A program made the position numbers and the translations under genes. Below the pieces are notes generated by a model that saw nothing but the letters and a program-made list of their open reading frames with translations, was not told the DNA's origin and ran no database searches. DNA of 64,000 nt from Clostridium sp. (GTDB lineage Bacteria; Bacillota; Clostridia; Clostridiales; Clostridiaceae): assembly GCF_022482905.1 (NCBI RefSeq), contig NZ_JAKVOI010000001.1:2419958-2483957 (forward strand). The letters are read 5' to 3'. Of this stretch, positions 5,784-47,697 are shown piece after piece. Every line of letters starts with the position of its first letter. The first letter of the stretch is position 1.

Positions 5784-6710
5784 TTAAATTCTACTAATCT
5801 TAACCTTTTTCATCATTTCTTTGACCTCTTTAACTTCTATCCATCCTGTTTTTTTAGTCATTGCATTAACTGTTCCACATGCGGTGCCAAGTGCTATTGT
5901 ATCTTCAATGGAATAATTTCTTTCTATTCCAACTGCAAATCCTCCTACCAACGAATCACCTGAGCCCACAGGATTTACCGCCTCTACATCTGGAACGGTT
6001 ACTCTGAACAAATTATTATCAAAACATACAAATGAACCATCTGCACCTAAAGACACAACAATACATTTTATTCCACTTTTATTCAAAGTTTTCATATGTT
6101 TTATAATGTCCTTATGATTCACTATTGGTTTTCCCAGTAACATTTCCAGTTCTTCTATATTAGGTTTTATCAAATATGGCTTTGCTTTTATTCCTTCTTC
6201 TAATAATTTCCCATTTGTATCCAATAAAAACTTCTTATTATTTTTGTTTGCCTTCTCTATAAGCTCTTCATATATATTTTTAGAAATATTTTTTGGAACA
6301 CTTCCTGATGCCACTATAATTCTTGAATCAGCAAGCAATCTTTCATAGAGTTTCATGAAGCTTTCCTGTTCTTCTTGCGTAACAATTGGTCCCGGCTCCA
6401 AAATTTCAGTTTGTACTAAATCATCTGTTATAAAGGCCAGACATTCTCTTGTTGAATCCTTAATTTTTACAAAGCAATTTTTTATCCCAATTTTTTGAAG
6501 TTCGGCCTCTATAAACTCACCTGTCTTTCCTCCGGAATATCCAGTTACTATACTATCCTGGCCTAATATATGTGCTATATTTGCGACATGAATACCTTTC
6601 CCACCTGCTGTATTTTCTACAGATCTCGCCCTCATTACCTTCCCTTTTACTATATCTTTTATTTCATATCTTTTATCTACAGATGCATTTAAATTTACAA
6701 TTGTAATCAA
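5784..6710 (-). CDS. lacC: Tagatose-6-phosphate kinase (PfkB family, LacC-type)
   Basis: 308 residues from a TTG at 6710. I chose this start because the family begins MI-TVTLN-A-D and the TTG gives exactly MITIVNLNASVDKRY. The TTG overlaps the aldolase stop as TTGA, with GGGAG upstream. An ATG at 6731 would add seven residues with no counterpart in the family. PfkB marks are NTAGGKGIHVANIAHILG, the C-terminal NPVGSGDSLVGGFA with the catalytic Asp, and DTNGK/KPNIEELE. It phosphorylates tagatose-6-phosphate to tagatose-1,6-bisphosphate, the substrate of the upstream-encoded aldolase. 1-phosphofructokinase is a close relative, but the lacAB-gatY context favours LacC. Confidence 0.85.
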   Translation of the reverse strand: MITIVNLNASVDKRYEIKDIVKGKVMRARSVENTAGGKGIHVANIAHILGQDSIVTGYSGGKTGEFIEAELQKIGIKNCFVKIKDSTRECLAFITDDLVQTEILEPGPIVTQEEQESFMKLYERLLADSRIIVASGSVPKNISKNIYEELIEKANKNNKKFLLDTNGKLLEEGIKAKPYLIKPNIEELEMLLGKPIVNHKDIIKHMKTLNKSGIKCIVVSLGADGSFVCFDNNLFRVTVPDVEAVNPVGSGDSLVGGFAVGIERNYSIEDTIALGTACGTVNAMTKKTGWIEVKEVKEMMKKVKISRI

Positions 6711-7561
6711 GCTTTTCCATTGCTCCCACACATCATAATTTTATTGATGACAATTTGCTTCATTGCTTTCTTTCCCGGAGTCATGTAATTTCTAGGGTCA
6801 TTTGCATCTGGATTATTTTTGAAATACTCTTTAACTGCATTTGAAAAAGGTATTTTTAAATCTGTTGCTATATTTACTTTACATATACCCAGTTCAATTG
6901 CCTTCTTTACTAAATTCTCGGGAACATCGGAAGCTCCATGAAGTACTAGAGGTACGGATACTTTCTCTTTTATTTTTTTAAGTCTTTCAAAATCGAGTTT
7001 TGGTTCCGCTTTATACAGTCCATGTGCCGTTCCAATAGCAACTGCCAAAGAATCAATACCTGTCTTTTCAACAAATTCCCGAGCTGCATCCGGGTCTGTA
7101 TAAGCTATGTCTTCATCTCTAACTGCAATATTTTCTTCTCTGCCGCCAAGCATGCCAAGTTCCGCTTCTACAACAGTCCCACTCAAATGGGCATATTCCA
7201 CAACTTCTCTTGTAATTTCTATGTTTTCCTCAAATTGTAATTTTGACGCATCTATCATAGCTGAGGTAAATCCGACATCTATGCAGTGCTTGATCTTGTC
7301 TACATTTTCAAAATGATCCAGATGCATAGCAAATGGAATATTTCTATATTTTAATGCAGCACATTTGGCAATTGACATCAAGTAATCTTCTCCACTATAA
7401 TCTATAGTTCCAGGTGTTCCTGCAATTATTACAGGTGAATTCAACTCTGAAGCGGTTTCTATTACAACTCTAAAAGTTTCAAGGTTGTGTATATTGAATG
7501 CAGGAACTGCATATTTCTCTTTCTCAGCTTTTATCAGCAATCCTTTTGTTGTAATTAACAT
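6707..7561 (-). CDS. gatY: Tagatose-1,6-bisphosphate aldolase, class II (GatY/KbaY-type)
   Basis: 284 residues, the same length as E. coli GatY. It shares long family stretches: YAVPAFNIHNLET, VIIAGTPGT, MHLDHFE (metal-binding His), MIDASKL, VEAELGMLGG, GIDSLAVAIGTAHG (His) and LVLHGASD (His), then KVNIATDLK. It cleaves tagatose-1,6-bisphosphate to dihydroxyacetone phosphate and glyceraldehyde-3-phosphate. It lies between lacB and lacC and overlaps lacC by a TTGA junction, so translation is probably coupled. Lactic-acid bacteria use a class I LacD in this position; here a class II enzyme takes the place. A GatZ-like accessory subunit is encoded in the neighbouring operon. Fructose-bisphosphate aldolase is the alternative reading. 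Confidence 0.88.
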   Translation of the reverse strand: MLITTKGLLIKAEKEKYAVPAFNIHNLETFRVVIETASELNSPVIIAGTPGTIDYSGEDYLMSIAKCAALKYRNIPFAMHLDHFENVDKIKHCIDVGFTSAMIDASKLQFEENIEITREVVEYAHLSGTVVEAELGMLGGREENIAVRDEDIAYTDPDAAREFVEKTGIDSLAVAIGTAHGLYKAEPKLDFERLKKIKEKVSVPLVLHGASDVPENLVKKAIELGICKVNIATDLKIPFSNAVKEYFKNNPDANDPRNYMTPGKKAMKQIVINKIMMCGSNGKA

Positions 7562-7603
7562 AATTTAATTACCTTCCCTTCACCATTTATCCGCATTAAA
7601 ATA

Positions 7604-8125
7604 CTACTCTTTTGGATAACCTCCATTATTCCATTTATCAATGAATTCATCAAAGAAATGTTCATTACCAAATTGTCCACTATCATCACTTATCAAACCA
7701 TCTATCTCTTTTATTATTTCAATATTTTCTTTGGTAGGCTTGTACTCTGATTCAAGAAAAACATCTATAATATTTTCAATAATCCCTATTCCTGTTATTC
7801 TGCCTCCAAACGCTATAACATTGGCATTTAGGTATTCTTTTGCATATCTTGCTGTAGTGACATCTCTTACTAATGCTGCTCTTACTCCCTTTACTTTATT
7901 AACCGAGTTTGATATTCCCACCCCTGTTCCACACAAAACTATTCCTAAATCAGCCTCTTTTGAAATAACTTTTTCAGCCGTCTTTTTACCGAATATAGGG
8001 TAATGGGTTCTTACAAAATCATAAGTACCATTATCAATAACCTCATGGCCTTTTGACTTTAAATATTGTGAAATCTTCATTTTAATATCTGGAACTATAT
8101 GATCACTGCCAAGCGAAATTATCAT
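7604..8125 (-). CDS. lacB: Galactose-6-phosphate isomerase subunit LacB
   Basis: 173 residues, close to the usual 171. RpiB/LacB fold: [13 protein letters not shown] at the N-terminus, [16 protein letters not shown] with the Cys of the active-site loop, [24 protein letters not shown], and FGGRITG. The C-terminal extension (from about residue 145) is typical of LacB rather than RpiB. Together with LacA it converts galactose-6-phosphate to tagatose-6-phosphate. It lies 23 bp after lacA and 42 bp before the aldolase gene. Confidence 0.93.
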
Positions 8126-8148
8126 TGTTAATACCTCCTAAGTTTTAT

Positions 8149-8577
8149 TTATAACATTTTATTCAACATATCAATTCTTATTTGGTGTCTTCCACCTGCA
8201 TATTTTTCATTCAAATATGCATCCAAAATTGCTTCAGCAATCTTTTTGCCCACAATTCCAGCTCCAATTGTAATCATATTTGCAGAGTTGTGCTGACTTG
8301 TCATTTTTGCTGAGTGTTCATCTGATACTTCTGCACAAATTATCCCCTTGTGTTTACAGCCAACCATAAATGAACCAGCTCCATATTGGTCAATTGCTAT
8401 TCCCCTCTCAACATCTTTGTTTAAAATCGATTTTGCAACAAATTTTGATGACTGGACAAAATTAAGCCCTCTCTCAGGTGTCTTATCAATTACCTCATAA
8501 CCTTTGCCCTTTAAATAATTTTTTAAATATTCTTTTAATTCAAAGCCATCTGTATCTGATCCAATTGCTACTTTCAT
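8149..8577 (-). CDS. lacA: Galactose-6-phosphate isomerase subunit LacA
   Basis: 142 residues from the ATG at 8577, which has GGAG and a suitable spacer; this is the normal LacA length. An in-frame GTG/ATG extension to 8595 would start upstream of the ribosome binding site. Family marks: KVAIGSDTDGFELK, RGIAIDQYGAGSFM, EVSDEHSAKMTSQHNSANMITIGAGIVG and YAGGRHQIRIDML. The position of the active-site Cys in LacB is not Cys here (IDQYGAGS), as expected for the LacA partner of the heteromer. First of the four catabolic genes lacA-lacB-gatY-lacC. Confidence 0.93.
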   Translation of the reverse strand: MKVAIGSDTDGFELKEYLKNYLKGKGYEVIDKTPERGLNFVQSSKFVAKSILNKDVERGIAIDQYGAGSFMVGCKHKGIICAEVSDEHSAKMTSQHNSANMITIGAGIVGKKIAEAILDAYLNEKYAGGRHQIRIDMLNKML

Positions 8578-34805: not shown

Positions 34806-35813
34806 TTAATTGAAATCCAATTTTGAAATTATTGCATCTGTAAATTCATCGGTAGTAGAATTTCCGCCAAGATCACAGGTCAGGTACTTTCCATCTTTAA
34901 GCACGGCCTCAACTGCATTCTCTATCCTATCCGCCGGGATGTTTTCTCCAAGATATCTAAGCATCATGATTGATGAAAGTATTATAGCCGTAGGATTGGC
35001 TTTATTTTTACCTGCAATATCAGGTGCAGATCCATGTGCAGCTTCAAATACTGCTGTATCCTCACCTACATTTGCTCCAGGAACCAGTCCTAGTCCGCCT
35101 ATGAGTCCCGATGCCATATCGGATAAGATATCACCATATAAATTCGGCATTACAAGAACATCATAATTTTCAGGATTAAGTACAAGTTTCATGCTCATTG
35201 CATCTACTATCACACTTTCAAATTCAATGCCTTCATACTCTTTGGCCACTTCCTGTGCAGTTTTAAGAAACAGGCCATCCGAAAGTTTCATTATATTTGC
35301 CTTATGAACAGCAGTAACCTTTTTCCTTCCATTTTTAACTGCATAATCAAATGCGGCTTTTACTATCTTTCTACTTGCATTTTTTGATATTATCTTTATA
35401 CTCTCGGCTATCTCATCACTTACCATATGCTCGATGCCGGCATATAAATCCTCTGTATTCTCTCTAAAAATAACAAGATCTACATTTTCATATCTGGATT
35501 TTACACCAGCATAGGTTTTTATAGGTCTTATATTTGCATACAGGTTTAACTGCTTCCTGAGGGTTACATTTACACTTCTGAAGCCTTTCCCAACAGGTGT
35601 GGTAACCGGCCCCTTAAGGGCTACTCCGTTTTTTCTTATGCTATTTATTATATGATCCGGTATTGGCGTACCGTACTTTTCAATTACGGCAGCTCCAGCT
35701 TCAAAGATCTCCCAGTCAATATCAGCTCCGCTCTTATCTATGACCCTTTTGGCTGCCATACAAACTTCAGGCCCTATTCCATCCCCCTTAATAAGGGTAA
35801 CTTTTTGTCTCAT
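34806..35813 (-). CDS. icd: Isocitrate dehydrogenase (beta-decarboxylating family, probably NAD-dependent)
   Basis: 335 residues from the ATG at 35813 (GGAGG seven bases upstream). Marks: TLIKGDGIGPEV, TTPVGKGFRSVNVTLRKQL with the substrate-binding Ser and Arg, RENTEDLYAGIEH, VTAVHKANIMKLSDGLF, the signature NLYGDILSDMASGLIGGLG and AHGSAPDIAGKNKANP. The length and last motif resemble the short NAD-type isocitrate and isopropylmalate dehydrogenases. No leu genes are nearby and the upstream gene is a citrate synthase, so isocitrate is the best substrate. It yields 2-oxoglutarate for glutamate synthesis. Confidence 0.88.
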   Translation of the reverse strand: MRQKVTLIKGDGIGPEVCMAAKRVIDKSGADIDWEIFEAGAAVIEKYGTPIPDHIINSIRKNGVALKGPVTTPVGKGFRSVNVTLRKQLNLYANIRPIKTYAGVKSRYENVDLVIFRENTEDLYAGIEHMVSDEIAESIKIISKNASRKIVKAAFDYAVKNGRKKVTAVHKANIMKLSDGLFLKTAQEVAKEYEGIEFESVIVDAMSMKLVLNPENYDVLVMPNLYGDILSDMASGLIGGLGLVPGANVGEDTAVFEAAHGSAPDIAGKNKANPTAIILSSIMMLRYLGENIPADRIENAVEAVLKDGKYLTCDLGGNSTTDEFTDAIISKLDFN

Positions 35814-35841
35814 TCCAATGCCTCCAAACAATTCATTTTAG

Positions 35842-37191
35842 TCAACATGCTCTCTCTTCCCTTTTTTCAAGTACCTCAGGCATCAACTTTTTCACAAGAA
35901 GCTCCATTTCACTGTTTCTTATTATATTGGTTCTTCCCATTTTATACTGATCATCTACCCACCTCTTTATTTCTACAACTCTAGGGTCTTTTTTTTCTAC
36001 CTTGTCTTCATCCTTCAATTTATAGTAGGTATTAATCCATGCTGCTATACCGGCAAGTCCTGAATACTGATTTATTTCAATTACAACCGGCCTTGCGAGT
36101 ATCTTGTCTGTGTCAAATGCATTGTAAATCTCCTTGTCCTTGAGCATCCCGTCTGCATGTATACCGGCTTTTGTAACATTGAACTGGCTTCCTACAAAAG
36201 GTGTCTTTGGTGGAATATCATATCCAAGTTGATTTTTAAAATAATTTGCTATTTCCGTTATAACTTCAAGCTTCATGCTCCTTGTATTCCCTTTGATTTG
36301 CGCATATTGGAATATCATGGCTTCGAGAGGACAGTTTCCAGTTCTTTCACCAATTCCAAACAGAGTGCTGTTTATGGATGCCACTCCATAAAGCCATGCA
36401 GTAGTTGAATTGTCTACAGCCGCATAAAAGTCATTGTGCCCGTGCCATTCCATGCACTCCTCCGGAATACCACATATTGTCCTAAGTCCATGCACAAGTC
36501 CCTGTACGCTTCTAGGAACTTCTGTTTGTCCATATGAAACTCCAACTCCAAGGGTATCACATAATCTTATTTTTATGGGGATACCAGATTCATGCGACAT
36601 ATCCATTAATTTATTTACAAGCGGAACTACAAATCCATAAAAATCCGCCCTTGTTATATCCTCCAGGTGGCACCTTGGCCTGATTCCATTGTTCAACGCT
36701 TCTTCCACAACAGAAAGATACATATCTACAGTTTCTTCCCTTGTCTTTCTCAATTTTTTAAATATATGATAATCAGAGCATGACATAAGCATTCCTGTTT
36801 CTTTTATACCCATATCCCTTACAAGCTTGAAATCTTCCTTGTTGGCTCTTATCCATGAAGTTATTTCAGGAAACTCATATCCTCTTTCCATACAGACTTC
36901 CGCAGCTTTCCTGTCCTTTTCACTGTACAGAAAAAACTCACTCTGCCTTATTATTCCTGAATTATTGTCCAATTCATGGAGATAATCGTATATATTGACT
37001 ATTTCCTCCAAAGTAAATGGCTCCATGGATTGCTGCCCATCTCTGAAAGTCGTATCTGTAATCCAGATGTTCTCAGGTATATTCATAGGAAGCTGTATAC
37101 CATTGAAAACTATCTTAGGAATTTCATCATATGGAAATATATCTTTATATAAATTAGGTTCTTTTATATTTTCCAACTTATAATCATACAT
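35842..37191 (-). CDS. Re-citrate synthase
   Basis: 449 residues from the ATG at 37191 (GGGAGA upstream). It belongs to the isopropylmalate/homocitrate synthase family: WITDTTFRDGQQSMEPFT at about 44-61 holds the metal Asp and catalytic Arg. MECWHGHNDFYAAV-type metal-binding His residues are seen (MEWHGHNDFYAAVDN), with FGIGERTGNCPLEA. The size, the N-terminal stretch NIKEPNLYKDIFPYDEIPKI and the pairing with isocitrate dehydrogenase fit the Re-stereospecific citrate synthase described from Clostridium kluyveri. It lacks a regulatory leucine-binding domain. It condenses oxaloacetate and acetyl-CoA. Homocitrate synthase is the alternative; no nif gene is nearby. Confidence 0.87.
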   Translation of the reverse strand: MYDYKLENIKEPNLYKDIFPYDEIPKIVFNGIQLPMNIPENIWITDTTFRDGQQSMEPFTLEEIVNIYDYLHELDNNSGIIRQSEFFLYSEKDRKAAEVCMERGYEFPEITSWIRANKEDFKLVRDMGIKETGMLMSCSDYHIFKKLRKTREETVDMYLSVVEEALNNGIRPRCHLEDITRADFYGFVVPLVNKLMDMSHESGIPIKIRLCDTLGVGVSYGQTEVPRSVQGLVHGLRTICGIPEECMEWHGHNDFYAAVDNSTTAWLYGVASINSTLFGIGERTGNCPLEAMIFQYAQIKGNTRSMKLEVITEIANYFKNQLGYDIPPKTPFVGSQFNVTKAGIHADGMLKDKEIYNAFDTDKILARPVVIEINQYSGLAGIAAWINTYYKLKDEDKVEKKDPRVVEIKRWVDDQYKMGRTNIIRNSEMELLVKKLMPEVLEKREERAC

Positions 37192-37578
37192 TAAAAACCA
37201 TCTCCCTTTCATATTGGCCCTATAGAAAATAAGCTAATTCTGAATTAAATTGCAATAGATATTTCAATTTATAAATCTCATGCTTTTTTTCAGCTATGTA
37301 CAAATATATTGCGTCCACTCCAGTTAACCCTTGTAAAATTCAGCATATACAAGGGTCACTTGTGAGAATTAATGATTATATTGTATCATTTTTAATAGTT
37401 ATAAGCAAATAAAATTTTCTTATTTATGATTTTTTCTTATTTAAACTTTCATTTAGTTTATTTAAAGGATTACATCAGGAGATATTGGACTTTTCCATAC
37501 AATTATTTTATAGCATTGACATTCATATATGATATAATGGGATAGTCGATAAAAATGATTACAGGAGGCATCATTATC
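37192..37578. promoter_or_regulatory. Divergent region between the Re-citrate synthase gene and plsC
   Basis: 387 bp without a gene. An inverted repeat ACCCTTGTA (37327-37335) / TACAAGGGT (37348-37356) with a 12-nt loop lies about 140 bp upstream of the citrate synthase start and could be an operator. An extended -10 (TGATATAAT, 37530-37538) fits a plsC promoter. The rest is plain AT-rich DNA. Confidence 0.45.
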
Positions 37579-39178: not shown

Positions 39179-39190
39179 AAGAATAATTGA

Positions 39191-39230
39191 AGATGAGTAT
39201 AGATTGGTTTTCTATACTCATCTTTTATTT
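39191..39230. terminator. Terminator between the lipoprotein gene and the AtuA operon end
   Basis: Perfect 13-bp stem AGATGAGTATAGA (39191-39203) / TCTATACTCATCT (39211-39223) followed by TTTATTT. It lies between convergent genes. Confidence 0.92.
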
Positions 39231-39528
39231 ATATATTCATATCCAGCAAAACCGAACTCAAGCTTTTCCCATGCTTATCCAATGACAGGGATCTTGTGAC
39301 TCCTCCGCCCAATGCATCATACATTACAAAATTCAAAGCACCTATTTTAGGAAGTTCATATCTTTTTATTTCCCCATTTACTATATCCCTAAACCACTCC
39401 TTGACTTTTTCCGCAGTTACCTTCTCTTCAATTAGCTTATAGTTCTCATTTTTATACACTATAAGTGATATATTTGATATATTCCCTTTGTCTCCCGTTC
39501 TTGAGTGTGCAATATCCCTCAATTTCAT
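39229..39528 (-). CDS. AtuA C-terminal-domain protein (second copy)
   Basis: 99 residues. It starts KLRDIAHSRTGDKGNISNIS and ends with GALNFVMYDALGGGVTRSLSLDKHG. This is the small ferredoxin-fold-like domain that is fused to the C-terminus of AtuA in some bacteria. It starts two bases after the stop of the upstream AtuA-like gene (TAG AA ATG), so it is almost certainly made with it as a partner subunit. It resembles the product of 44102-44419. It is the last gene of the sigma-54 operon. Confidence 0.88.
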   Translation of the reverse strand: MKLRDIAHSRTGDKGNISNISLIVYKNENYKLIEEKVTAEKVKEWFRDIVNGEIKRYELPKIGALNFVMYDALGGGVTRSLSLDKHGKSLSSVLLDMNI

Positions 39529-39530
39529 TT

Positions 39531-40883
39531 CTACACCTTCTCATAAATAACATTTATTTTTATATCTTTACGTGGTACAAGTATTGATGCAATTGATATT
39601 ATCTCATCAGCATATTTTCTCACTCCTCCCCCTCCTGACGGACCATTGGTATAGAGTGCTTCAACTTCATTTCCTATTGTTTTTGCATTCTCTTTTTTTA
39701 AAGTCCTTGCAGCAACTCTAAGTCTTACCTCTTTAAAGTCACATCTGGCATTTATTTTTCGGCTTAAGTAATTTCCATAAAGAGAATCAACCCCTATAAT
39801 ATCCACCTTCAATTCATCTATGGGCAAATTTATATATTCCAATCTTTTTCTAATTATTTTTCCTGCCAAATCTGCCCTTTCATATGCACCTGAACCTCCA
39901 TAACTTATTTCTCCTTCACCTACATAACAATCTTTATAACCTATACTTACCTTAAACAAACCATTTTTTTCTTTTCCTGAAGCTCCTTTTATCAGTACTC
40001 TGTTTACTCCAGTTTCTTCAATGGTTATTTTTGAAAAATCGGCTGTAACATCAGGTGTAAAATAATTTGCCGGATCATGGATTTCATATATTGCCTGCTC
40101 TTTACAAGTATGCTGGTTAACTATTCCTCCCGTATCTTCAAGCTTTGTTACAGTTATATCTCCATTTTCAGTTATCTCTGCTATTGGGAATCCTAAATTC
40201 CACAGATCGGGTACCTCCTTATATCCTGGATCTGCAAAATATCCTCCTGTCACCTGACCTGCACATTCCAATAGATGTCCGGCTAAAGTACCTTTCCCTA
40301 ACAATTCATAATCATTTTCATCCCATCCAAATTCAAACATCAAGGGTGCCAAAGTCAAAGATGGATCTGCTACTCTTCCAGTTACTACAATATCAGCTCC
40401 ATTTTCCAGAGCTTCTATTATACCTTGTACACCTATATATGCATTTGCCGAGATTATATTTGACCTTATGGAATTCAGCTTTTTACCAGTTTCAAGTATT
40501 CTACAGCTCATATATTCATCTATATGTTCTAAAATATCGTCTCCCAATACTGACGCTATTTTCAAACCTTTTATTCCTATCTCCAATGCAGTTTTTTTCA
40601 CTATCTTGACTGCAGATACAGGATTTGCAGCACCCATATTGGTTATTACTTTTACTTTCTTTTCATAACATAGTGGCAGTATTTTTCTCATACGATACTC
40701 AAGAAATTCATTGTAACCTTTATCCTTATCAATTAATTTCTGCTGCTGGTCAATTGCTATTGTCCTTTCCGCCAGGCATTCGAATATGATATAATCTAAA
40801 TTTCCCTTTTCCATAATTTCTACGGCAGGTTCTATTCTATCCCCTGCAAAACCTGCACCTGAGCCTATCCTCACCTTTTTCAT
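39531..40883 (-). CDS. AtuA-like (DUF1446) protein, second copy
   Basis: 450 residues of the acyclic terpene utilisation AtuA family. Marks: VRIGSGAGFAGDRIEPA at the N-terminus, DYIIFECLAERTIA, VITNMGAANP, NAYIGVQGIIEALENGADIVVTGRVADPSL split over one region, GTLAGHLLECAGQVTGGYFADPG, TVTKLEDTGGIV and YEIHDPANYFTPDVTADF. Its reaction is unproven; in Pseudomonas atuA belongs to the citronellol/geraniol operon and has been linked to the HMG-CoA-like cleavage step. It differs clearly from the first copy, so two related substrates or a heteromer are possible. Confidence 0.9.
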   Translation of the reverse strand: MKKVRIGSGAGFAGDRIEPAVEIMEKGNLDYIIFECLAERTIAIDQQQKLIDKDKGYNEFLEYRMRKILPLCYEKKVKVITNMGAANPVSAVKIVKKTALEIGIKGLKIASVLGDDILEHIDEYMSCRILETGKKLNSIRSNIISANAYIGVQGIIEALENGADIVVTGRVADPSLTLAPLMFEFGWDENDYELLGKGTLAGHLLECAGQVTGGYFADPGYKEVPDLWNLGFPIAEITENGDITVTKLEDTGGIVNQHTCKEQAIYEIHDPANYFTPDVTADFSKITIEETGVNRVLIKGASGKEKNGLFKVSIGYKDCYVGEGEISYGGSGAYERADLAGKIIRKRLEYINLPIDELKVDIIGVDSLYGNYLSRKINARCDFKEVRLRVAARTLKKENAKTIGNEVEALYTNGPSGGGGVRKYADEIISIASILVPRKDIKINVIYEKV

Positions 40884-40913
40884 ATTTAATAGCCTCCATC
40901 AACTCAACTAAAA

Positions 40914-42281
40914 TTAAATTCCAAAGAGTTTAAGTACTATCCAGCTGGATGCATAGAAAGTCATATACTGTACTCCAGTATGCACGCCAAAAAATCTATT
41001 TAATATGCCACCAAAGATACCAATTGTCAATGAAATTCCAATTCCAACAAAACCAGCTTCATAGAAAGATAAAACCGTTATCAATCCAACGAACATACAA
41101 ATTATAGCTTCCTGGCTGACATATTTCAAAACCCATACACTGGCTTTTCTGGCATAATTCATAGATAGCGGATAGGCTATGATGTAAGCTACTATAATTC
41201 CCATTAGTCCATAAAGTGCGAATTCCCCTGATGTCATCATATTGTGCAGATTGTGAACAGGCTGGCTGGAAAATACAGGCGGTGCATTGAACAAAGGCCC
41301 TGCCGGTCCAAGTCCTACAGGACTAAGTGGTATTCCAAAGGCTACCAAGGGTATTAACGTCTCAGCTATATAAGTTGCTTCAGTTACTGCATTCATCACA
41401 CTCAGACAAGTTGTAAGTCGTTGATATAAACTTTTAACTTTGGATGCCACTATTTCTCCAATCATTACTGTCATACCTACAGGACTGAATGTAAAAGTAA
41501 GTGCAGATATGCCAGCACCTATCAGAGTATACTTAGTTTGTCCACGTGTAAGCATTTTTAGTGGATTGGGAAAATAACCTTTCCATGTTTTTAATTCTGG
41601 AGCCAGCCAAAATTCTTTTGGTGAACTTTTAAGAATAGAACCATGAGTCACTGGAGATAAAAGAGTAATTATGTCTGCAAACATCGGCCCAATAGCAATA
41701 CCAAGAAATATTCCTATGGAGATGCTTTGATGTCCAGCACTGGCCAATTTGATTACGCCTTGAAGAAACACGGCAAATGGTATCAACACAAATACGCTGG
41801 CCCACTTGCCTTTAGATGTATAAGCAATTATAATTGCTGCAACTGTAAAAATAATAGGCGCCCATACTTCCACTATATGTGAAAATGGAGCAAGCAGTGT
41901 TGCAAATCCAATTGAAATAGGCAGGGCAATAATTGCTCCAAGAATTGCTCCAGAGATCATTTTTCGCAGGGCAATATGGGGAACACCCAACCGTCTTAGA
42001 ACATTTGCATATTCCAAAAGTGGAACAGCCATGGTATCTCCCGGAACACCCATTAGAGCTGTCGGAATTGCATGCGTCATATGTTTGGAAACAGCTCCCC
42101 CAATAAAAAATGAGAATATGGCTACAGGTGGAAACCCAAGTAAAATAATCAACAAAGTTAACGGCGCTACTGTAGCAGTTTCATCAGTTCCAGATATAAG
42201 CCCTATAAATGAAAAAATAACACTGCCGAGAATAGCACTCCCAACACCCCATAATATATTATGCAAAAGTAATACATCCAT
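40914..42281 (-). CDS. TctA-like tripartite tricarboxylate transporter permease
   Basis: 455 residues with about ten to twelve hydrophobic segments. It has the TctA-type stretches FSFIGLISGTDETATVAPLT, TALMGVPGDTMAVPLLEY and FGIPLSPVGLGPAGPLFN. TctA is the large channel subunit of carboxylate transporters that normally work with a binding protein (TctC) and TctB. No TctC is encoded here, and the gene upstream makes a small membrane protein that may stand for TctB. A branched hydroxy-carboxylate such as mevalonate would fit the neighbours. The ATG has GGGGAGA upstream. Confidence 0.85.
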   Translation of the reverse strand: MDVLLLHNILWGVGSAILGSVIFSFIGLISGTDETATVAPLTLLIILLGFPPVAIFSFFIGGAVSKHMTHAIPTALMGVPGDTMAVPLLEYANVLRRLGVPHIALRKMISGAILGAIIALPISIGFATLLAPFSHIVEVWAPIIFTVAAIIIAYTSKGKWASVFVLIPFAVFLQGVIKLASAGHQSISIGIFLGIAIGPMFADIITLLSPVTHGSILKSSPKEFWLAPELKTWKGYFPNPLKMLTRGQTKYTLIGAGISALTFTFSPVGMTVMIGEIVASKVKSLYQRLTTCLSVMNAVTEATYIAETLIPLVAFGIPLSPVGLGPAGPLFNAPPVFSSQPVHNLHNMMTSGEFALYGLMGIIVAYIIAYPLSMNYARKASVWVLKYVSQEAIICMFVGLITVLSFYEAGFVGIGISLTIGIFGGILNRFFGVHTGVQYMTFYASSWIVLKLFGI

Positions 42282-42301
42282 AATTTACCATCTCCCCTCT
42301 G

Positions 42302-42715
42302 TTATTTATCATCGTTTTCTCCAGCAAAGAGTTCATACAATTTAAGATTTTTCATCTCTTCTACAATTTCTTTTTCTACTGTCTTTAATTCTTCTCTTTC
42401 TTTATCCAAATCTACGTCAATCTCTTTCAACACCAGATTTCTGTCTTCTTCTGAAAAATTTTTTTCCTGTAGAATACGTTTTGGTTTAAATAATCTAGCC
42501 GATATAAATGCACTTAATAGAGAAGCGAGCATACCGATCAACAGGGCATAGGCTTTACACAGCTTCAACGCTATATCTGGAAAATTCAATTGAATAAGCT
42601 TCAAGCTAAAAATAAAAGATGGCAGACTAATGGCTATTCCAATAACAATTGCAAATAAGAGATGCCTAACATTTACTGTATCTCCCCATATATCTGCATA
42701 GATTTTCTTTTCCAT
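42302..42715 (-). CDS. Small membrane protein with a charged coiled-coil tail
   Basis: 137 residues from the ATG at 42715 (GGAGG eleven bases upstream). Two hydrophobic segments (about 18-40 and 57-80: LLFAIVIGIAISLPSFIF and YALLIGMLASLLSAFI) are followed by a strongly charged tail from about 90 that is likely helical or coiled-coil (rich in Glu and Lys). No family recognised. It is encoded 20 bp upstream of the TctA-like permease, in the position a TctB subunit would take, and is probably its partner. Confidence 0.8.
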   Translation of the reverse strand: MEKKIYADIWGDTVNVRHLLFAIVIGIAISLPSFIFSLKLIQLNFPDIALKLCKAYALLIGMLASLLSAFISARLFKPKRILQEKNFSEEDRNLVLKEIDVDLDKEREELKTVEKEIVEEMKNLKLYELFAGENDDK

Positions 42716-42806
42716 AATTAAATCAACCTCCATATCAATTTAATAATGTTATCTTGTATAAGTAAAATACTTCACTTATACAAGACATTTGATATACAAT
42801 ACTATG

Positions 42807-44075
42807 TTACTTTGAGCCGGAATATTTTTTTACCAGTTCCTGAGCATACTCCAATCTTACCTTTTTCTCCTCTACCATCTTTTTTACGATCTTTTCTAGT
42901 AATTCACCTTTTGCACCTGCAACAGAAGCAATATTTCTCGCGTGAAGTGACATGTGTCCTCTCTGAATACCCTCTGTAGCTAGTGCCTTGATTGCTGCAA
43001 GATTTTGTGCCAATCCTACAGAAGCAATAATTTCTCCAAGTTCCACGGCACTTTTAACTCCAAGCATCTTTACTGCCACCTGTGCTGCTGGATGAATTTT
43101 CGTAGCCCCTCCTACAAGACCAACCGCCATAGGAATCTCAATTGTACCTGACAGATCGCCATCTTCATTCTTTTCCCATGTCGTTAATGATCTATATTGT
43201 CCTGAACGGGAAGCATAGGCATGAGCTCCGGATTCTATAGCTCTCGTATCATTTCCTGTAGCCATAACTACTGCACTTATTCCATTCATAATTCCTTTAT
43301 TGTGAGTTGCCGCCCTGTATGGATCGGCATCAGCAAAAGCATATGCTGTAACTATTTTATCAACAACTTCCTCTCCTCCCAACGTCGCCTTGTCAATAGT
43401 TACTCTTGAACGTGCAAGTCTGTGTATTGCTAAATTGGATAAAATCCTTAAATATATTTTTCCTCCTGTAACTTTCTCAATAAAAGGAGCCACAGCCTCA
43501 GCCATGGTATTGACAGCATTGGCACCCATTGCATCCAACGTATTAACCTCAAGATGAACTACAACCATTTCTCCCTCACTGGATTCAATTACCCTCACTT
43601 CAATATCCTGAACGCCACCACCAAATTTAACTAGAACTGGATCTTTGTCATTGCAGATTTTAATAATTTCATCTTTGTTTTCGTAGATCTTAATTTTCGC
43701 ATAATTAGGGTCTTTAACATCAATAATCTGAATTTGTGCAATCATGATGGAGCCTGTATTGCTTGCAAAAAATCCTCCTGTTTCTCTTGCCATTTTAGCT
43801 GCATTACTTGCGGCAGCAACTACAGACGGCTCTTCAGTTACCATGGGTATAATATAATCTTTGCCATTTACAATAAAATTGAGAGCAACTCCCATTGGAA
43901 GTTGAAAAGTACCTACTACATTTTCAATCATGTGATCTGACTTGTCTATATCAAGAGCACCCGGTTCTTTTATTACTTTTTGCTCCTCCTCTGACAAACC
44001 TGTAAGTTCACCAACCTCCTTCAACCTGTTTTCCGGTGAAAGCTTGTAGAACCCTGAATAACTACTTGTTTTCAT
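42807..44075 (-). CDS. mvaA: Class II (degradative-type) HMG-CoA reductase
   Basis: 422 residues from the ATG at 44075, nine bases after AAAGGAG; an ATG at 44084 abuts that site. Class II marks: IENVVGTFQLPMGVA with the catalytic Glu (around 51), GGGVQDIEVRV, LDAMGANAVNTMAEA, THNKGIMNGI with the catalytic Lys, MATGNDTRAIE with the Asp, GTIEIPMAVGLVGGA, and GHMSLHARN with the His. It has no membrane anchor. In Pseudomonas mevalonii this class oxidises mevalonate to HMG-CoA for growth; in some Gram-positive cocci it works in the synthetic direction. The sigma-54 operon with a carboxylate permease favours degradation. No HMG-CoA lyase or mevalonate kinase gene is near. Confidence 0.95.
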   Translation of the reverse strand: MKTSSYSGFYKLSPENRLKEVGELTGLSEEEQKVIKEPGALDIDKSDHMIENVVGTFQLPMGVALNFIVNGKDYIIPMVTEEPSVVAAASNAAKMARETGGFFASNTGSIMIAQIQIIDVKDPNYAKIKIYENKDEIIKICNDKDPVLVKFGGGVQDIEVRVIESSEGEMVVVHLEVNTLDAMGANAVNTMAEAVAPFIEKVTGGKIYLRILSNLAIHRLARSRVTIDKATLGGEEVVDKIVTAYAFADADPYRAATHNKGIMNGISAVVMATGNDTRAIESGAHAYASRSGQYRSLTTWEKNEDGDLSGTIEIPMAVGLVGGATKIHPAAQVAVKMLGVKSAVELGEIIASVGLAQNLAAIKALATEGIQRGHMSLHARNIASVAGAKGELLEKIVKKMVEEKKVRLEYAQELVKKYSGSK

Positions 44076-44101
44076 ATTTTCCATCTCCTTTAATATTAAT
44101 C

Positions 44102-44419
44102 TTATTTATCCAAATCAATTTCAAATCTCAAAAGTGCCGCTTCCATGCACTTTCCAAGTGTATCCAATCTAAGTGAACGCGTTGCCCCTCCATCCAGTGC
44201 ATGATGGAGTACAAAATTAAACCCATAAAGCTGCGGAATATCGTATCTTATTACATCGCCTTTTACAATACCCTTGTAGTGCTCTTTTACAGCTTCAGGT
44301 GTAAGCTGCCTTTTCATGGCATCATAGTATTTCGGATCTCTCGCAAATATACACACATTTTCCGTATCACTTTTATCTCCTGATCTTCCGTGGGCTATAT
44401 CCTTCAATTTAACTATCAT
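44102..44419 (-). CDS. AtuA C-terminal-domain protein (first copy)
   Basis: 105 residues: VKLKDIAHGRSGDKSDTENV at the start and NFVLHHALDGGATRSLRLDTLG near the end. Clear relative of the product of 39229-39528. It starts one base after the TAG of the upstream AtuA-like gene, with GAGG inside the end of that gene, so translation is coupled. It probably forms one enzyme with the AtuA-like protein. Confidence 0.88.
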   Translation of the reverse strand: MIVKLKDIAHGRSGDKSDTENVCIFARDPKYYDAMKRQLTPEAVKEHYKGIVKGDVIRYDIPQLYGFNFVLHHALDGGATRSLRLDTLGKCMEAALLRFEIDLDK

Positions 44420-44420
44420 A

Positions 44421-45779
44421 CTATTTTACCTCCTCTACATATGCTTCAAGCTTAACTGCATCCCTGGGAATAAGAGTAGGCCACAATGCGAACACTTCTG
44501 CAGCCCTGGTTCTACCTCCAAAGAAACAGGATGCCGGCGGTCCATTTAGAATAAACGGAGCAATTTCAGGAGTCAATTTATCAGCTTCTTCTTTTGCCTT
44601 TGTTTTTATGGCTATTCTAAGTACAACTTCATTGAGTTCCTGCTTTATTTCTTCTGCAAGTGGTCCATGAAGGGAATTAAGTCCAACAAACTCAATTCTC
44701 TTTTCTATGGCATCAAGTCCTTTGTTTGTAAGCCTGTCGTCAAGTATCTGTGCAGCCCTCTTTGCCTTGTCAAGTGCATCAGGCCAGCTGAAAGGCAGAT
44801 AAGCTACATTTCTGTATCCTTCAGTATATCCAACGCAAAGTTTCAATGTATCAGGTCTTTTATGACCTTTAACACCTTCAACTAAAACCCTGTCCTTTCC
44901 TATCTGTTTTAAATTTATTCCGCTAAAATCTGCAACAACATCCGGTGTCAAATATTTTTTTGGATCATGTATCTCATAGAATAACTGTTCTTCTATGGAT
45001 TCGACAGTTACAAGTCCTCCTGTATCCTTTGTCTTGGTCATTACTATCCTTCCAGGCTCACTTATCTCGGCTATAGGGTATCCCAGATCCTCCGGATGGG
45101 GAACATTTCTCCAGTCATAGTCATAATTTCCTCCAGTTGCCTGAGCTCCACACTCCGAAAGATGACCCGTCAAAATACCAGTAGCAAGAGAATCCCAATC
45201 TCCATCTTTCCAACCAAGCTCATATTCAAGCGGTGCCAGAAATAGAGCCGTATCTGTAGAACGCCCCACGATTATTATATCTGCTCCACCTTCCAGGCAC
45301 TCCACTATTGGTTCCGAACCATAGTATACGTTTGCATTTACCATATGAGGCAGAATTGTATCTATGGATTCTCCCGTATCCATATTGTTCATTGATATGC
45401 CCTGTTTCCTCAGATCGGGTATTATATCCATAACATCATCACCAAGTACATGTCCTATTTTTAAATTATGGCCCGATTCCTTGACTGCCTGTTTTGCTGC
45501 CTCAACTGCAGATTTTACATTCATTCCGCCTGCATTTGTCAAAACCTTTATTCCCTTTTCTTTAACCATTGGAAGCATTTTTTTTAGTGCCTTTATAAAA
45601 TCTCTGGCATATCCTGCTTCAGGATGACGTTCCTTCTGTCTCTGCATTATAGATAAGGTAAGCTCCGCCAAATAATCACAGGATATATAATCCACATTAT
45701 CTTTCTGAGCCATTTCAATAGGAGCATCATTCAAATCCCCCCAGAATCCCTGGGCTCCTCCAATTCTTATTGTCTTCAT
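44421..45779 (-). CDS. AtuA-like (DUF1446) protein, first copy
   Basis: 452 residues, first gene of the sigma-54 operon. It begins TIRIGGAQGFWGDLNDAPIE; further family stretches are DYISCDYLAELTLSIMQRQ, VLTNAGGMNV, NANVYYGSEPIVECLEGGAD, IIVGRSTDTALFLAPLEYEL, GILTGHLSECGAQATGGNYD, VMTKTKDTGGLVTVES and YEIHDPKKYLTPDVVADFSG. The product of 39531-40883 shares the same order of motifs. Function unknown; see the entry for that copy. The start has GAAGGTGG upstream. Confidence 0.9.
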   Translation of the reverse strand: MKTIRIGGAQGFWGDLNDAPIEMAQKDNVDYISCDYLAELTLSIMQRQKERHPEAGYARDFIKALKKMLPMVKEKGIKVLTNAGGMNVKSAVEAAKQAVKESGHNLKIGHVLGDDVMDIIPDLRKQGISMNNMDTGESIDTILPHMVNANVYYGSEPIVECLEGGADIIIVGRSTDTALFLAPLEYELGWKDGDWDSLATGILTGHLSECGAQATGGNYDYDWRNVPHPEDLGYPIAEISEPGRIVMTKTKDTGGLVTVESIEEQLFYEIHDPKKYLTPDVVADFSGINLKQIGKDRVLVEGVKGHKRPDTLKLCVGYTEGYRNVAYLPFSWPDALDKAKRAAQILDDRLTNKGLDAIEKRIEFVGLNSLHGPLAEEIKQELNEVVLRIAIKTKAKEEADKLTPEIAPFILNGPPASCFFGGRTRAAEVFALWPTLIPRDAVKLEAYVEEVK

Positions 45780-45829
45780 AAATCCACCTTCTTCATAAAA
45801 TATGTTATTTATCCAGCAATTATATAAAC

Positions 45830-45845
45830 AGCATATTCCATGCCA
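45830..45845 (-). promoter_or_regulatory. Sigma-54 (-24/-12) promoter of the AtuA-HMG-CoA reductase operon
   Basis: The minus strand reads TGGCATGGAATATGCT. Against the consensus TGGCACG-N4-TTGCW, GG and GC are kept with the exact ten-base spacing and only two positions differ. It lies 51 bp upstream of the first gene. Its -24 side overlaps the T-run of the regulator's terminator. Confidence 0.85.
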
Positions 45846-45873
45846 AAAAATAGTGCCTTCTTCAAGGCACTAT
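45844..45873 (-). terminator. Terminator of the sigma-54 activator gene
   Basis: Minus-strand stem ATAGTGCCTT / AAGGCACTAT (45864-45873 with 45850-45859), loop GAAG, followed by TTTTTT. Confidence 0.92.
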
Positions 45874-45910
45874 AAAATCAGTATTTTAGATTTTCCTGTT
45901 CCACATCCGA

Positions 45911-45946
45911 TGTATACTTTGTATACGATTATATACAAAGTATACA
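45911..45946. promoter_or_regulatory. Candidate upstream activator site (15-bp inverted repeat)
   Basis: Arms 45911-45925 and 45932-45946 are perfect reverse complements, and GTATAC occurs at 45912, 45921 and 45940. It starts just after the regulator's stop codon and is centred about 110 bp upstream of the expected start of the sigma-54 transcript, the normal place for an enhancer-binding protein. Confidence 0.75.
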
Positions 45947-45948
45947 AA

Positions 45949-47697
45949 TCATCTAGTATACACATTGGGATCAATGCCATATATCTTCAACTTACGATAA
46001 AAGGTTCTCCTGCACATTCCAAGCTTTTTCATGGCATATGTCCTATTTCCATTTGATCTCCTCAATTCATTTATTATTTCCTCCTTTTCAATGCCTGATA
46101 TAATGTGTTTCAAATTGTCATTTTTATATGCAGCACTGTTTTTACTTGGGGAGGAGCTTTTTATTTCATCCGGTAGATTCCCAACTTCTATAGTATTTCC
46201 CTGGCAAATTATAACCGAATATTCAATACAACTTTGAAGTTGTCTGACATTTCCATACCACTTGTTATTTAATAAAATTTTTATAACGTCTTTTGACAAT
46301 GTCAATCTTTTATTGTACTTATTACAATATAGCTTAAGGAAATGATTTGCGAGAATAATTATATCCTTTCCCCTTTCTCTAAGAGGAGGTATTTTTATCT
46401 TAAATGTATTCAATCTAAAATAAAGATCCTCCCTGAATTTTTCCTCTTCAACCATTAATTTTAAATCTCTGTTTGTAGCGGCTATAATTCTTACATCAAC
46501 TCTGTTGACATTATTGGAACCAATTTTTTGAATTTCACCTGATTGCAGCACCCTAAGAAGCTTTGCCTGCATAAAAAGAGGCATTTCTCCTATTTCGTCC
46601 AAAAATATAGTTCCCTTGTCAGCCATTTCAAACTTGCCCTCCTTGCCACCTTTTTGTGCACCAGTAAACGATCCCTGCGAGTATCCAAACAATTCACTTT
46701 CAAACAGGCTCTCTGGAATAGCAGAACAATTTATGTTTATAAAAGGGGTCTTCCTCTGCTTATTGGCATTCACTATGGCATTTACCACCACCTCTTTCCC
46801 AACTCCGCTTTCGCCCTCAATCAATACAGTGGCGTCTGTAGGCGCCACTATGGAGGCCAGTTTCAAACATTTCACAAATTTCCTGTCACTTCCTATTACA
46901 TTGGAGAAACTCTCCGGAAAACTATTGTGGGCTTTGATACTATCATTATAGATAATTCCTGTTAACTTCCTTACATTTTTCAATTCCCTGTTCAATATGG
47001 ATACCTCTGTAATATCTTTAAAAACAGATATTGCACCAAAAAGCTTTCCATCCATAAATATGGGATTTATATTAACTATGATTTCTTTACCTATACTTTT
47101 AACTTTAACCAAAGTGTTTATTTTAGGTTTTCCTTCCTCAAGGCTTTTCAGAATAACAGCCCCGGGCTCTATTTCCTTCACAAATTTATTCAGCACTCTA
47201 TATTTACATACCTTCAAAATTCTTGAATAAGCTTCATTAACATATATTATCTTGGAATTTTTATCAACTATTACAATCCCGTCATGAATCTGGTCTATAG
47301 CTGCCAGAAACATATATAATGCATTTTCATTTTTTACAAGTCTTACAAGTTCACAGGAAATAAATCCTACAAGCTTTCCAACCGCATCTACAACATAAAT
47401 AAAACGATATTTGTTTAGATAATCATCGGCAATAGAAATTTTATATTTAAATAAAGTATCTTTATAATTTAACACATCCACCTTTGCAGCACTAAAATTT
47501 TTATCTTCCTTTAAAACGTTGTTTAAATTGTATATATCAGTAATTCCAAGAAATTTGCCCTTACCATCAATCACGGGAAAATATCTATCATGCTTGCTTG
47601 ACAAGAAATTTCCAATATCATGGATTAAAGTATTTCTATTATAAACAAAGGGTTTCAAAATACTCACTTTTCTATTCATAATATCCTTTACCTTCAA
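45949..47697 (-). CDS. Sigma-54-dependent activator with CBS and PAS domains
   Basis: 582 residues. Two CBS-type repeats (about 1-120: VKDIMNRKVSILKP, RYFPVIDGKGKFLGITDI, FIYVVDAVGKLVGFIS), a PAS domain (about 130-235; DGIVIVDKNSKIIYVNEAY) and the AAA+ domain (about 265-490). The AAA+ domain has Walker A GESGVGKE, the sigma-54 contact loop GSFTGA (usual form GAFTGA), Walker B GTIFLDEIGEM and the R-finger region FREDLYFRLN. A Fis-type helix-turn-helix (about 545-580; NRTYAMKKLGMCRRTFYRKL) ends it. There is no phosphorylation receiver, so it should sense a small molecule directly. It is encoded just upstream of the operon on the same strand and is the obvious activator. Confidence 0.93.
   Translation of the reverse strand: MKVKDIMNRKVSILKPFVYNRNTLIHDIGNFLSSKHDRYFPVIDGKGKFLGITDIYNLNNVLKEDKNFSAAKVDVLNYKDTLFKYKISIADDYLNKYRFIYVVDAVGKLVGFISCELVRLVKNENALYMFLAAIDQIHDGIVIVDKNSKIIYVNEAYSRILKVCKYRVLNKFVKEIEPGAVILKSLEEGKPKINTLVKVKSIGKEIIVNINPIFMDGKLFGAISVFKDITEVSILNRELKNVRKLTGIIYNDSIKAHNSFPESFSNVIGSDRKFVKCLKLASIVAPTDATVLIEGESGVGKEVVVNAIVNANKQRKTPFININCSAIPESLFESELFGYSQGSFTGAQKGGKEGKFEMADKGTIFLDEIGEMPLFMQAKLLRVLQSGEIQKIGSNNVNRVDVRIIAATNRDLKLMVEEEKFREDLYFRLNTFKIKIPPLRERGKDIIILANHFLKLYCNKYNKRLTLSKDVIKILLNNKWYGNVRQLQSCIEYSVIICQGNTIEVGNLPDEIKSSSPSKNSAAYKNDNLKHIISGIEKEEIINELRRSNGNRTYAMKKLGMCRRTFYRKLKIYGIDPNVYTR

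Follow-up and report, generated by a model that had tools for sequence, protein, structure and literature searches.

A seven-gene operon in Clostridium sp. (contig NZ_JAKVOI010000001.1) probably encodes an inducible pathway of mevalonate catabolism, in which mevalonate would be imported, oxidized to 3-hydroxy-3-methylglutaryl-CoA (HMG-CoA) and cleaved to acetoacetyl-CoA and acetate by a two-subunit AtuA-type enzyme, AtuA1-AtuF1. The operon and its activator gene lie on the minus strand at positions 39229-47697 of a 64,000-nucleotide stretch of DNA (the window), whose numbering is used throughout. The gene order on that strand is activator, sigma-54 promoter-like site, AtuA1-AtuF1-HMGR-TctB-like-TctA-AtuA2-AtuF2 and a terminator-like hairpin (Table 1), where HMGR denotes HMG-CoA reductase. 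The original prediction had listed a class II HMGR, two AtuA pairs, a TctA-like permease, a small membrane partner and a sigma-54 activator. All are present, with family scores above curated cut-offs for every protein except the partner, for which neither Pfam nor NCBIfam gave a match at E 0.001 and which is recognized by tblastn relatives (28-40% identity) that immediately precede TctA in many HMGR loci.

The HMGR is the sole match to PF00368 in the genome, a single contig of 3.57 Mb, and scores 495.6 bits against the 'degradative' equivalog TIGR00532 (cut-off 259.95). Its best match among PDB sequences is 1qax, which we take to be the Pseudomonas mevalonii enzyme, and the catalytic Glu, Lys, Asp and His and the NAD-specific Asp of that protein are conserved in it (E85, K263, D279, H377 and D148, respectively). 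It is predicted to be a degradative-type enzyme that converts mevalonate to HMG-CoA. The TctA-type permease is 49-55% identical to TctA proteins encoded near HMGR in proteobacteria and is the probable mevalonate importer, which may also import 3-hydroxy-3-methylglutarate (HMG). As for the parts of a tripartite tricarboxylate transporter, TctA scores above its cut-off, TctB is recognized by weak similarity only and no TctC was found among the operon genes.

AtuA1-AtuF1 and HMG-CoA lyase (HMGL)-type genes are alternatives in similar HMGR cassettes, which is the key evidence for a lyase role of AtuA1-AtuF1. Among 12 HMGR loci of Bacillota, AtuA1-AtuF1 occurs in four, an HMGL-type gene in four, isoprenoid-synthesis genes in three and no recognized partner in one; none of the 12 has AtuA and an HMGL-type gene together. 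The AtuA type comprises the window, two genomes of the same family (loci L104 and L105; activator-AtuA1-AtuF1-HMGR-TctB-TctA) and a Sporomusaceae metagenome-assembled genome (MAG), UBA7701 (L025; AtuA1-AtuF1-HMGR). The HMGL type comprises Clostridium bovifaecis (L103, the same as L023; HMG-CoA lyase-activator-HMGR-TctB-TctA), L013 in genome G091 (activator-HMGR-lyase-TctA), L012 in G274 (activator-TctB-TctA-HMGR-HMGL-like) and L024, a Lachnospiraceae MAG with an HMGL-like gene and HMGR, whose contig ends just after the latter. L103 and L013 pass the HMG-CoA lyase model (388 and 341 bits; cut-off 246), whereas L012 and L024 score below it (179 and 204 bits). The isoprenoid-type loci were identified by profile (type 2 isopentenyl diphosphate isomerase and phosphomevalonate kinase in L015, mevalonate kinase and HMG-CoA synthase in L016, HMG-CoA synthase in L017) and, like L014, were not counted as degradative. 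In the HMGR tree, the lyase-type C. bovifaecis is nested with the AtuA-type G601 and G589 beside the window (99/96, 96/91), suggesting that the lyase type changed within this clade. The search of other genomes for AtuA, HMGR and TctA neighbors proposed in the original prediction thus supports a replacement of HMG-CoA lyase by AtuA1-AtuF1, whereas AtuA2, included in the same claim, probably has another substrate. In L025, genes for the large and small proteins of aconitase X (6610-8283, plus strand) lie directly upstream of AtuA1-AtuF1-HMGR; it may be speculated that this cassette hydrates anhydromevalonate to mevalonate before oxidation.

In the family, 4 of 206 genomes have HMGR relatives; the same is true of one of the 13 genomes listed for the genus and of 7 of 398 in the phylum sample (8 of 398 if a discounted 19.8-bit match in G211 is included). 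Of the named loci, which are the 80 best among 581 confirmed ones, 18 have TctA within 6 kb of HMGR, 15 have an HMGL hit, one has AtuA and none has HMGL together with AtuA. In ten proteobacterial loci among these 80, HMGR is accompanied by both TctA and an HMGL hit; in eight of the ten, the genes lie on one strand in the order HMGR, lyase, TctA.

The genome has four places matching PF00682, none of which looks like an HMG-CoA lyase, in agreement with the absence of this enzyme that had been supposed. Two of them, LeuA and pyruvate carboxylase, score above the cut-offs of their models, and a NifV-alpha-like protein scores 313.7 bits, below its cut-off of 462.9. The fourth, at 35842-37212 of the window, lies beside an isocitrate dehydrogenase family gene (34806-37212 together, minus strand); its best NCBIfam models fall below cut-off and it did not match the HMG-CoA lyase model at E 1e-20. 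We take it to be a clostridial Re-citrate synthase. A hidden lyase elsewhere in the genome was set aside on these assignments, that of the window protein being putative. Since no PF00682 protein fits HMG-CoA lyase, HMG-CoA formed from mevalonate would be processed without the classical enzyme.

In the proposed pathway, the core of which was put forward in the original prediction and is supported here, TctA and its TctB-like partner would import mevalonate, and HMGR would work in the oxidative direction (mevalonate + CoA + 2 NAD+ -> HMG-CoA + 2 NADH). AtuA1-AtuF1, in place of HMG-CoA lyase, would then cut HMG-CoA at the end that bears the free carboxylate, releasing acetate and retaining the thioester on acetoacetyl-CoA. 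The classical lyase yields acetyl-CoA and acetoacetate, and a CoA-transferase is then needed to obtain acetoacetyl-CoA; with the thioester kept on the C4 product, acetoacetyl-CoA would be supplied directly to butyrate formation without a CoA-transferase. Its reduction through the butyryl-CoA route would use the two NADH, and the net conversion of mevalonate (C6H12O4) to acetate (C2H4O2) and butyrate (C4H8O2) would, by arithmetic and textbook metabolism, be redox-neutral. AtuA2-AtuF2 would perform the same cleavage on free HMG, yielding acetate and acetoacetate, and the sigma-54 activator would sense a substrate or an intermediate. The sequences show the genes, the promoter-like site, which pathway genes are absent or present, the exchange of lyase types and the clades; the substrate, the reaction direction, the bond cut, the products and the AtuA2 substrate are predicted.

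The genome holds two thiolases, five acyl-CoA dehydrogenase places, two CoA-transferase places, Etf, an enoyl-CoA hydratase family protein and RnfC. A locus near 562 kb (L184) combines genes for an acyl-CoA dehydrogenase and an Etf subunit with those for a CoA-transferase, a GntP-type permease, a sigma-54 activator and RnfC. In another, near 3.32 Mb (L187), the enoyl-CoA hydratase family protein is encoded together with a CoA-transferase and a GntP-type permease. The acyl-CoA dehydrogenase-Etf blocks of these loci (L184:5696-8648 and L187:9579-12531) are nearly identical, 380 of 380, 259 of 260 and 342 of 344 codons translating alike. Both blocks follow a CoA-transferase gene; the one in L184 is next to rnfC and is provided with a sigma-54 activator of its own.

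Both large AtuA subunits score above the PF07287 gathering score and have an AtuA_ferredoxin partner. They share 39% identity and belong to distinct clades, both with good support, and therefore are not recent duplicates; the trees rule out two equal or recently duplicated copies. AtuA was matched in 99 of the 398 genomes of the phylum sample (98 above cut-off). Nineteen contexts were considered. Twelve come from the 13 strong places located elsewhere than in the window, G008 (of the same genus as G094) being left out; the other seven are weaker ones, which were scanned by tblastn only and play no part in the conclusions. The second AtuA tree was built without L143, a partial sequence, and without the E. 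coli row. One context, L146:5740-11234 (plus strand) in genome G155, contains genes for a sigma-54 activator, AtuA and AtuF and one that, by eye, encodes an acyl-CoA carboxyltransferase; it is perhaps a methylcrotonyl- or geranyl-type route with AtuA as its last step.

The clade of AtuA1 (100/98 and 100/99 in two trees) also contains three other HMGR-linked AtuA proteins and two CaiB-linked ones (genomes G380 and G071). The cassettes of the latter have the order activator-AtuA-AtuF-CaiB-CitMHS, established by profiles in G071 and by eye in G380. A CaiB-type CoA-transferase and CitMHS beside the closest relatives of AtuA1 fit an HMG-CoA substrate: HMG could be imported in these cassettes and then charged with CoA.

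The solved relative of these proteins is CmlA. E. coli O157 Sakai ECs_0760 matches PDB entries 9erq and 9evf ('citramalate lyase, subunit A (cmlA)') at 970 bits and, with ECs_0759, is placed between a methylaspartate ammonia-lyase gene and a transporter and fumarase-type gene. A DUF1446 gene following methylaspartate ammonia-lyase in enterobacteria is also described in an earlier report (PMC4682846). ECs_0759 and ECs_0760 (L019:6934-8618, minus strand) are annotated as acyl-CoA synthetase and 3-methylaspartate ammonia-lyase, yet match DUF4387 and AtuA, respectively, which is likely a misannotation. CmlA resembles AtuA1 in being a PF07287 member and in cleaving, as AtuA1 is proposed to do, a tertiary beta-hydroxy acid, and the alignment that includes both has 25 residues invariant in 15 of 15 sequences. 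It differs in its 20% identity to AtuA1, in its free-acid substrate and in its small neighboring protein, a DUF4387 member. The AtuA profile lacking the E. coli row (A4) finds 9erq at E 3.2e-7; it was used instead of A3, whose match to CmlA is inflated by that row.

AtuA2 belongs to a different clade (100/100 in two trees), together with CitMHS-AtuA-AtuF modules. In the 12 contexts viewed (L139, L140, L141, L143, L166 and L169-L175), CitMHS adjoins the AtuA2-type gene in six (L139 and, by record annotation, L166, L169, L171, L172 and L174), other transporters lie near it in three (L170, L173 and L175) and no transporter was seen in L140, L141 or L143, the last being cut inside AtuA. No CoA-activating gene lies directly before the AtuA2-type gene in the 11 contexts other than L143, the plasmid gene tables being incomplete. 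AtuA2-AtuF2 probably cleaves free HMG. It might instead cleave free citramalate or citrate, so that the operon would join the use of two acids, a tentative alternative compatible with the role proposed for AtuA1; the name of the solved relative, citramalate lyase, speaks for it, as does the fact that CitMHS is a citrate transporter family. However, the AtuA2-type pair of Azospirillum thermophilum (L171) is followed by genes for 3-oxoacid CoA-transferase A and B, and that of Microvirga (L170) has a gene for a 3-hydroxybutyrate oligomer hydrolase nearby; both point to acetoacetate, each in a single locus.

Several observations weigh against the pathway proposed above. Within its clade, the window AtuA1 is nearest to those of G380 and G071, whose cassettes have no HMGR, and its substrate could follow theirs. 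AtuA1 is weakly related to CmlA (single-sequence E 0.014, besides the profile value given above), and the gene beside the E. coli counterpart of CmlA does not encode an AtuA_ferredoxin. AtuA2 was flagged for odd composition in the alignment. In the phylum sample, AtuA lies beside HMGR only in the window, out of the seven genomes with a real HMGR match, and L025 has aconitase X and, by eye, a major facilitator superfamily transporter in place of TctA. The degradative-type set of eight loci rests partly on the presence of a lyase or AtuA, so that the count of zero loci with neither follows by definition, although the count of zero with both does not. Moreover, 57 of the 80 named HMGR loci, many of them archaeal or cut short, have no TctA, HMGL, AtuA or activator nearby, and in seven proteobacterial HMGR-TctB-TctA loci (L052, L060, L065, L069, L072, L082 and L091) neither HMG-CoA lyase nor AtuA was detected within 6 kb. 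Finally, a butyrate route in the host is plausible, judged by the enzymes listed above.

If the imported substrate were HMG or another tertiary hydroxy diacid, HMG-CoA would be formed from it, the AtuA pairs would split a part, and HMGR would run reductively as an electron sink, with mevalonate excreted. The nearest relatives of both AtuA1 and the activator do lie in CaiB/CitMHS cassettes, in two genomes without HMGR in the phylum-sample search, and TctA families usually carry di- and tricarboxylates. This scheme is nevertheless improbable: the operon has no CoA-transferase or CoA-ligase gene, HMGR and TctA occur with an HMGL hit in the ten proteobacterial loci, and D148 fits the use of NAD. 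We give an equally low probability to AtuA1-AtuF1 being another CoA enzyme (a thioesterase, transferase or isomerase), with HMG-CoA cleaved by a promiscuous PF00682 enzyme or dehydrated to 3-methylglutaconyl-CoA. No report of an assay on the AtuA1 subclade was found in the literature searched, which leaves room for such a role, but AtuA and lyase genes replace each other from one locus to another, AtuA family members are recorded as lyases, and the PF00682 proteins are otherwise assigned. A role of HMGR in mevalonate biosynthesis for isoprenoids, as for the class II HMGR genes of L015-L017 in the same phylum sample, is very improbable and was set aside, as the original prediction anticipated for a host using the methylerythritol phosphate (MEP) route: whole-genome searches returned no hits for HMG-CoA synthase and no mevalonate kinase above cut-off (34.7 and 23.6 versus 163 bits), and hence no complete synthesis pathway elsewhere, while ispG of the MEP route is present and HMGR is confined to a single listed genome of the genus.

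Expression of the mevalonate operon appears to be under sigma-54 control, with a -24/-12 element upstream and an adjoining activator gene. The activator scores 227 bits against Sigma54_activat of Pfam, above the curated cut-off, and 470 bits against the PrdR model, below its cut-off of 795. The activator gene stands as first described, but the activator, placed in the same operon by the original prediction, is probably on its own transcript, because a hairpin follows its gene and the -24/-12 site comes immediately after. Eight sites in the whole 64-kb window reach 10 of 13 consensus positions, so the site alone would prove little. Of 10 cassettes, the window included, 8 have a site with at least 10 of 13 matches ahead of their first structural gene, compared to 9 hits in 2000 single-base-shuffled regions, and a chance occurrence was therefore set aside; no such site was found upstream in the remaining two, L148 and L149. 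The perfect inverted repeat between the activator and the hairpin is a possible binding site for the activator (upstream activating sequence, UAS), and GTATAC-type repeats resembling it, read by eye, occur upstream in L149, L012 and L013.

Table 1. Features of the mevalonate operon and its activator, in minus-strand order
Feature	Position	Strand	Remarks
Sigma-54-dependent activator	45949..47697	-	CBS-like and PAS sensor part, AAA+, Fis-type helix-turn-helix; TTG start
Perfect 15-bp inverted repeat, 6-bp spacer	45911..45946	.	Candidate activator site (UAS)
Intrinsic terminator-like hairpin and T run	45850..45873	-	3' of activator gene
Sigma-54 -24/-12 promoter-like site TTGGCATGGAATATGCT	45830..45846	-	Begins at 45846, 67 bp before AtuA1; 10/13 consensus positions
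AtuA1, large subunit of proposed HMG-CoA lyase	44421..45779	-	PF07287, 475 bits
AtuF1, presumed small subunit, AtuA ferredoxin-like domain	44102..44419	-	PF23544, 99.5 bits
Class II HMGR, degradative type	42807..44084	-	HMG-CoA_red, 388 bits, above curated cut-off
TctB-like small membrane partner, 143 amino acids	42302..42733	-	tblastn relatives only
TctA-type permease	40914..42281	-	PF01970, 68.5 bits, above curated cut-off
AtuA2, large subunit of proposed second lyase	39531..40883	-	PF07287, 524 bits
AtuF2, presumed small subunit of second lyase	39229..39528	-	PF23544, 131 bits
Bidirectional terminator-like hairpin	39189..39225	.	14-15 pair stem at operon end

The operon appears to be of mosaic origin. 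Its activator groups with those of the G380 and G071 AtuA1-CaiB-CitMHS cassettes (100/99), and its AtuA1 is 71 and 69% identical to the respective proteins of these genomes. HMGR, on the other hand, groups with that of C. bovifaecis (80% identity) and with the G601 and G589 cassettes, and TctA is closest, among those compared, to proteobacterial HMGR-linked TctA (55%). Since the activator and AtuA1 have their kin in HMG-type cassettes and HMGR in mevalonate-type cassettes, the simplest reading of these sequences is that the operon arose by the joining of an HMG cassette to a mevalonate cassette. Recent transfer was also considered from base composition, but the G+C content of the operon (38.0%, compared to 35.2% for window positions 1-39228) is not telling.

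Besides CmlA, two AtuA-type systems provide a comparison. According to a review, which itself cites unpublished results, ThnQS of anaerobic naphthalene degradation cleaves a tertiary-alcohol acyl-CoA to a 3-oxoacyl-CoA (PMC12016498). ThnQS resembles the proposed AtuA1-AtuF1 as an AtuA-like two-gene lyase that acts on a tertiary-alcohol acyl-CoA and keeps the thioester, and differs in its ring-derived substrate, the likeness being drawn from that description. AtuA of the acyclic terpene pathway is a lyase by proposal (PMC4847356); the Pseudomonas and Thauera proteins share the family name with the window AtuA proteins and are expected to cleave the same kind of bond. Unlike that system, the window has separate genes for the large and small subunits, a presumed HMG-CoA substrate and no acyl-CoA carboxylase gene in the operon; no geranyl-CoA carboxylase or hydratase was found among the operon genes, to which the search for these enzymes was confined. 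These family cases cleave a tertiary alcohol beside a free carboxylate and, applied to HMG-CoA, this family pattern and the gene context would give acetate and acetoacetyl-CoA.

A broader proposal, to which we give about even odds, is that two-subunit AtuA enzymes are general acetate-releasing lyases of tertiary beta-hydroxy acids (R1R2C(OH)CH2COO- -> ketone + acetate, or the ring-opening equivalent), with clades split by substrate: citramalate, ring-derived acyl-CoA, isohexenyl-HMG-CoA, HMG-CoA (AtuA1) and free HMG (AtuA2). The operon would then be a mosaic of HMG and mevalonate cassettes with both lyase types, and would allow mevalonate to be fermented to acetate and butyrate without net redox change, a single enzyme taking over the roles of HMG-CoA lyase and CoA-transferase. 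Such a scheme would give the AtuA/DUF1446 family a specific, easily tested reaction, predict which clades use CoA esters and which use free acids, and add a possible anaerobic route of mevalonate use.

Mevalonate catabolism through a class II HMGR is already known, and in P. mevalonii it proceeds by the HMG-CoA reductase MvaA and the HMG-CoA lyase MvaB. The window operon resembles that system in having a class II HMGR of the NAD type, whose active-site residues are conserved, and in the catabolic direction expected of this enzyme. It differs in having AtuA1-AtuF1 beside HMGR in a genome where no HMG-CoA lyase was found, and in its sigma-54 control, TctA-type import and clostridial, presumably anaerobic host. 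It also resembles the proteobacterial HMGR-lyase-TctB-TctA cassettes (such as L064, L070 and L081), with 56-60% identity in HMGR, 49-54% in TctA and a TctB-like gene directly before TctA; these proteobacterial cassettes have a lyase hit instead of AtuA, and no sigma-54 activator was detected within 8 kb of them. In the literature searched, which left out most subscription journals, nothing was found on AtuA with HMGR or on mevalonate fermentation; a mention of HMG-CoA in PMC11648564 is the title of a cited work. Thus, the suggestion that the operon represents an undescribed mevalonate catabolism does not apply to the HMGR step but holds for the lyase step. As far as this literature goes, three points are new: AtuA pairs that take the place of the lyase, the occurrence of two clade-specific lyases within a single sigma-54 operon, and a fermentation that is predicted to be balanced.

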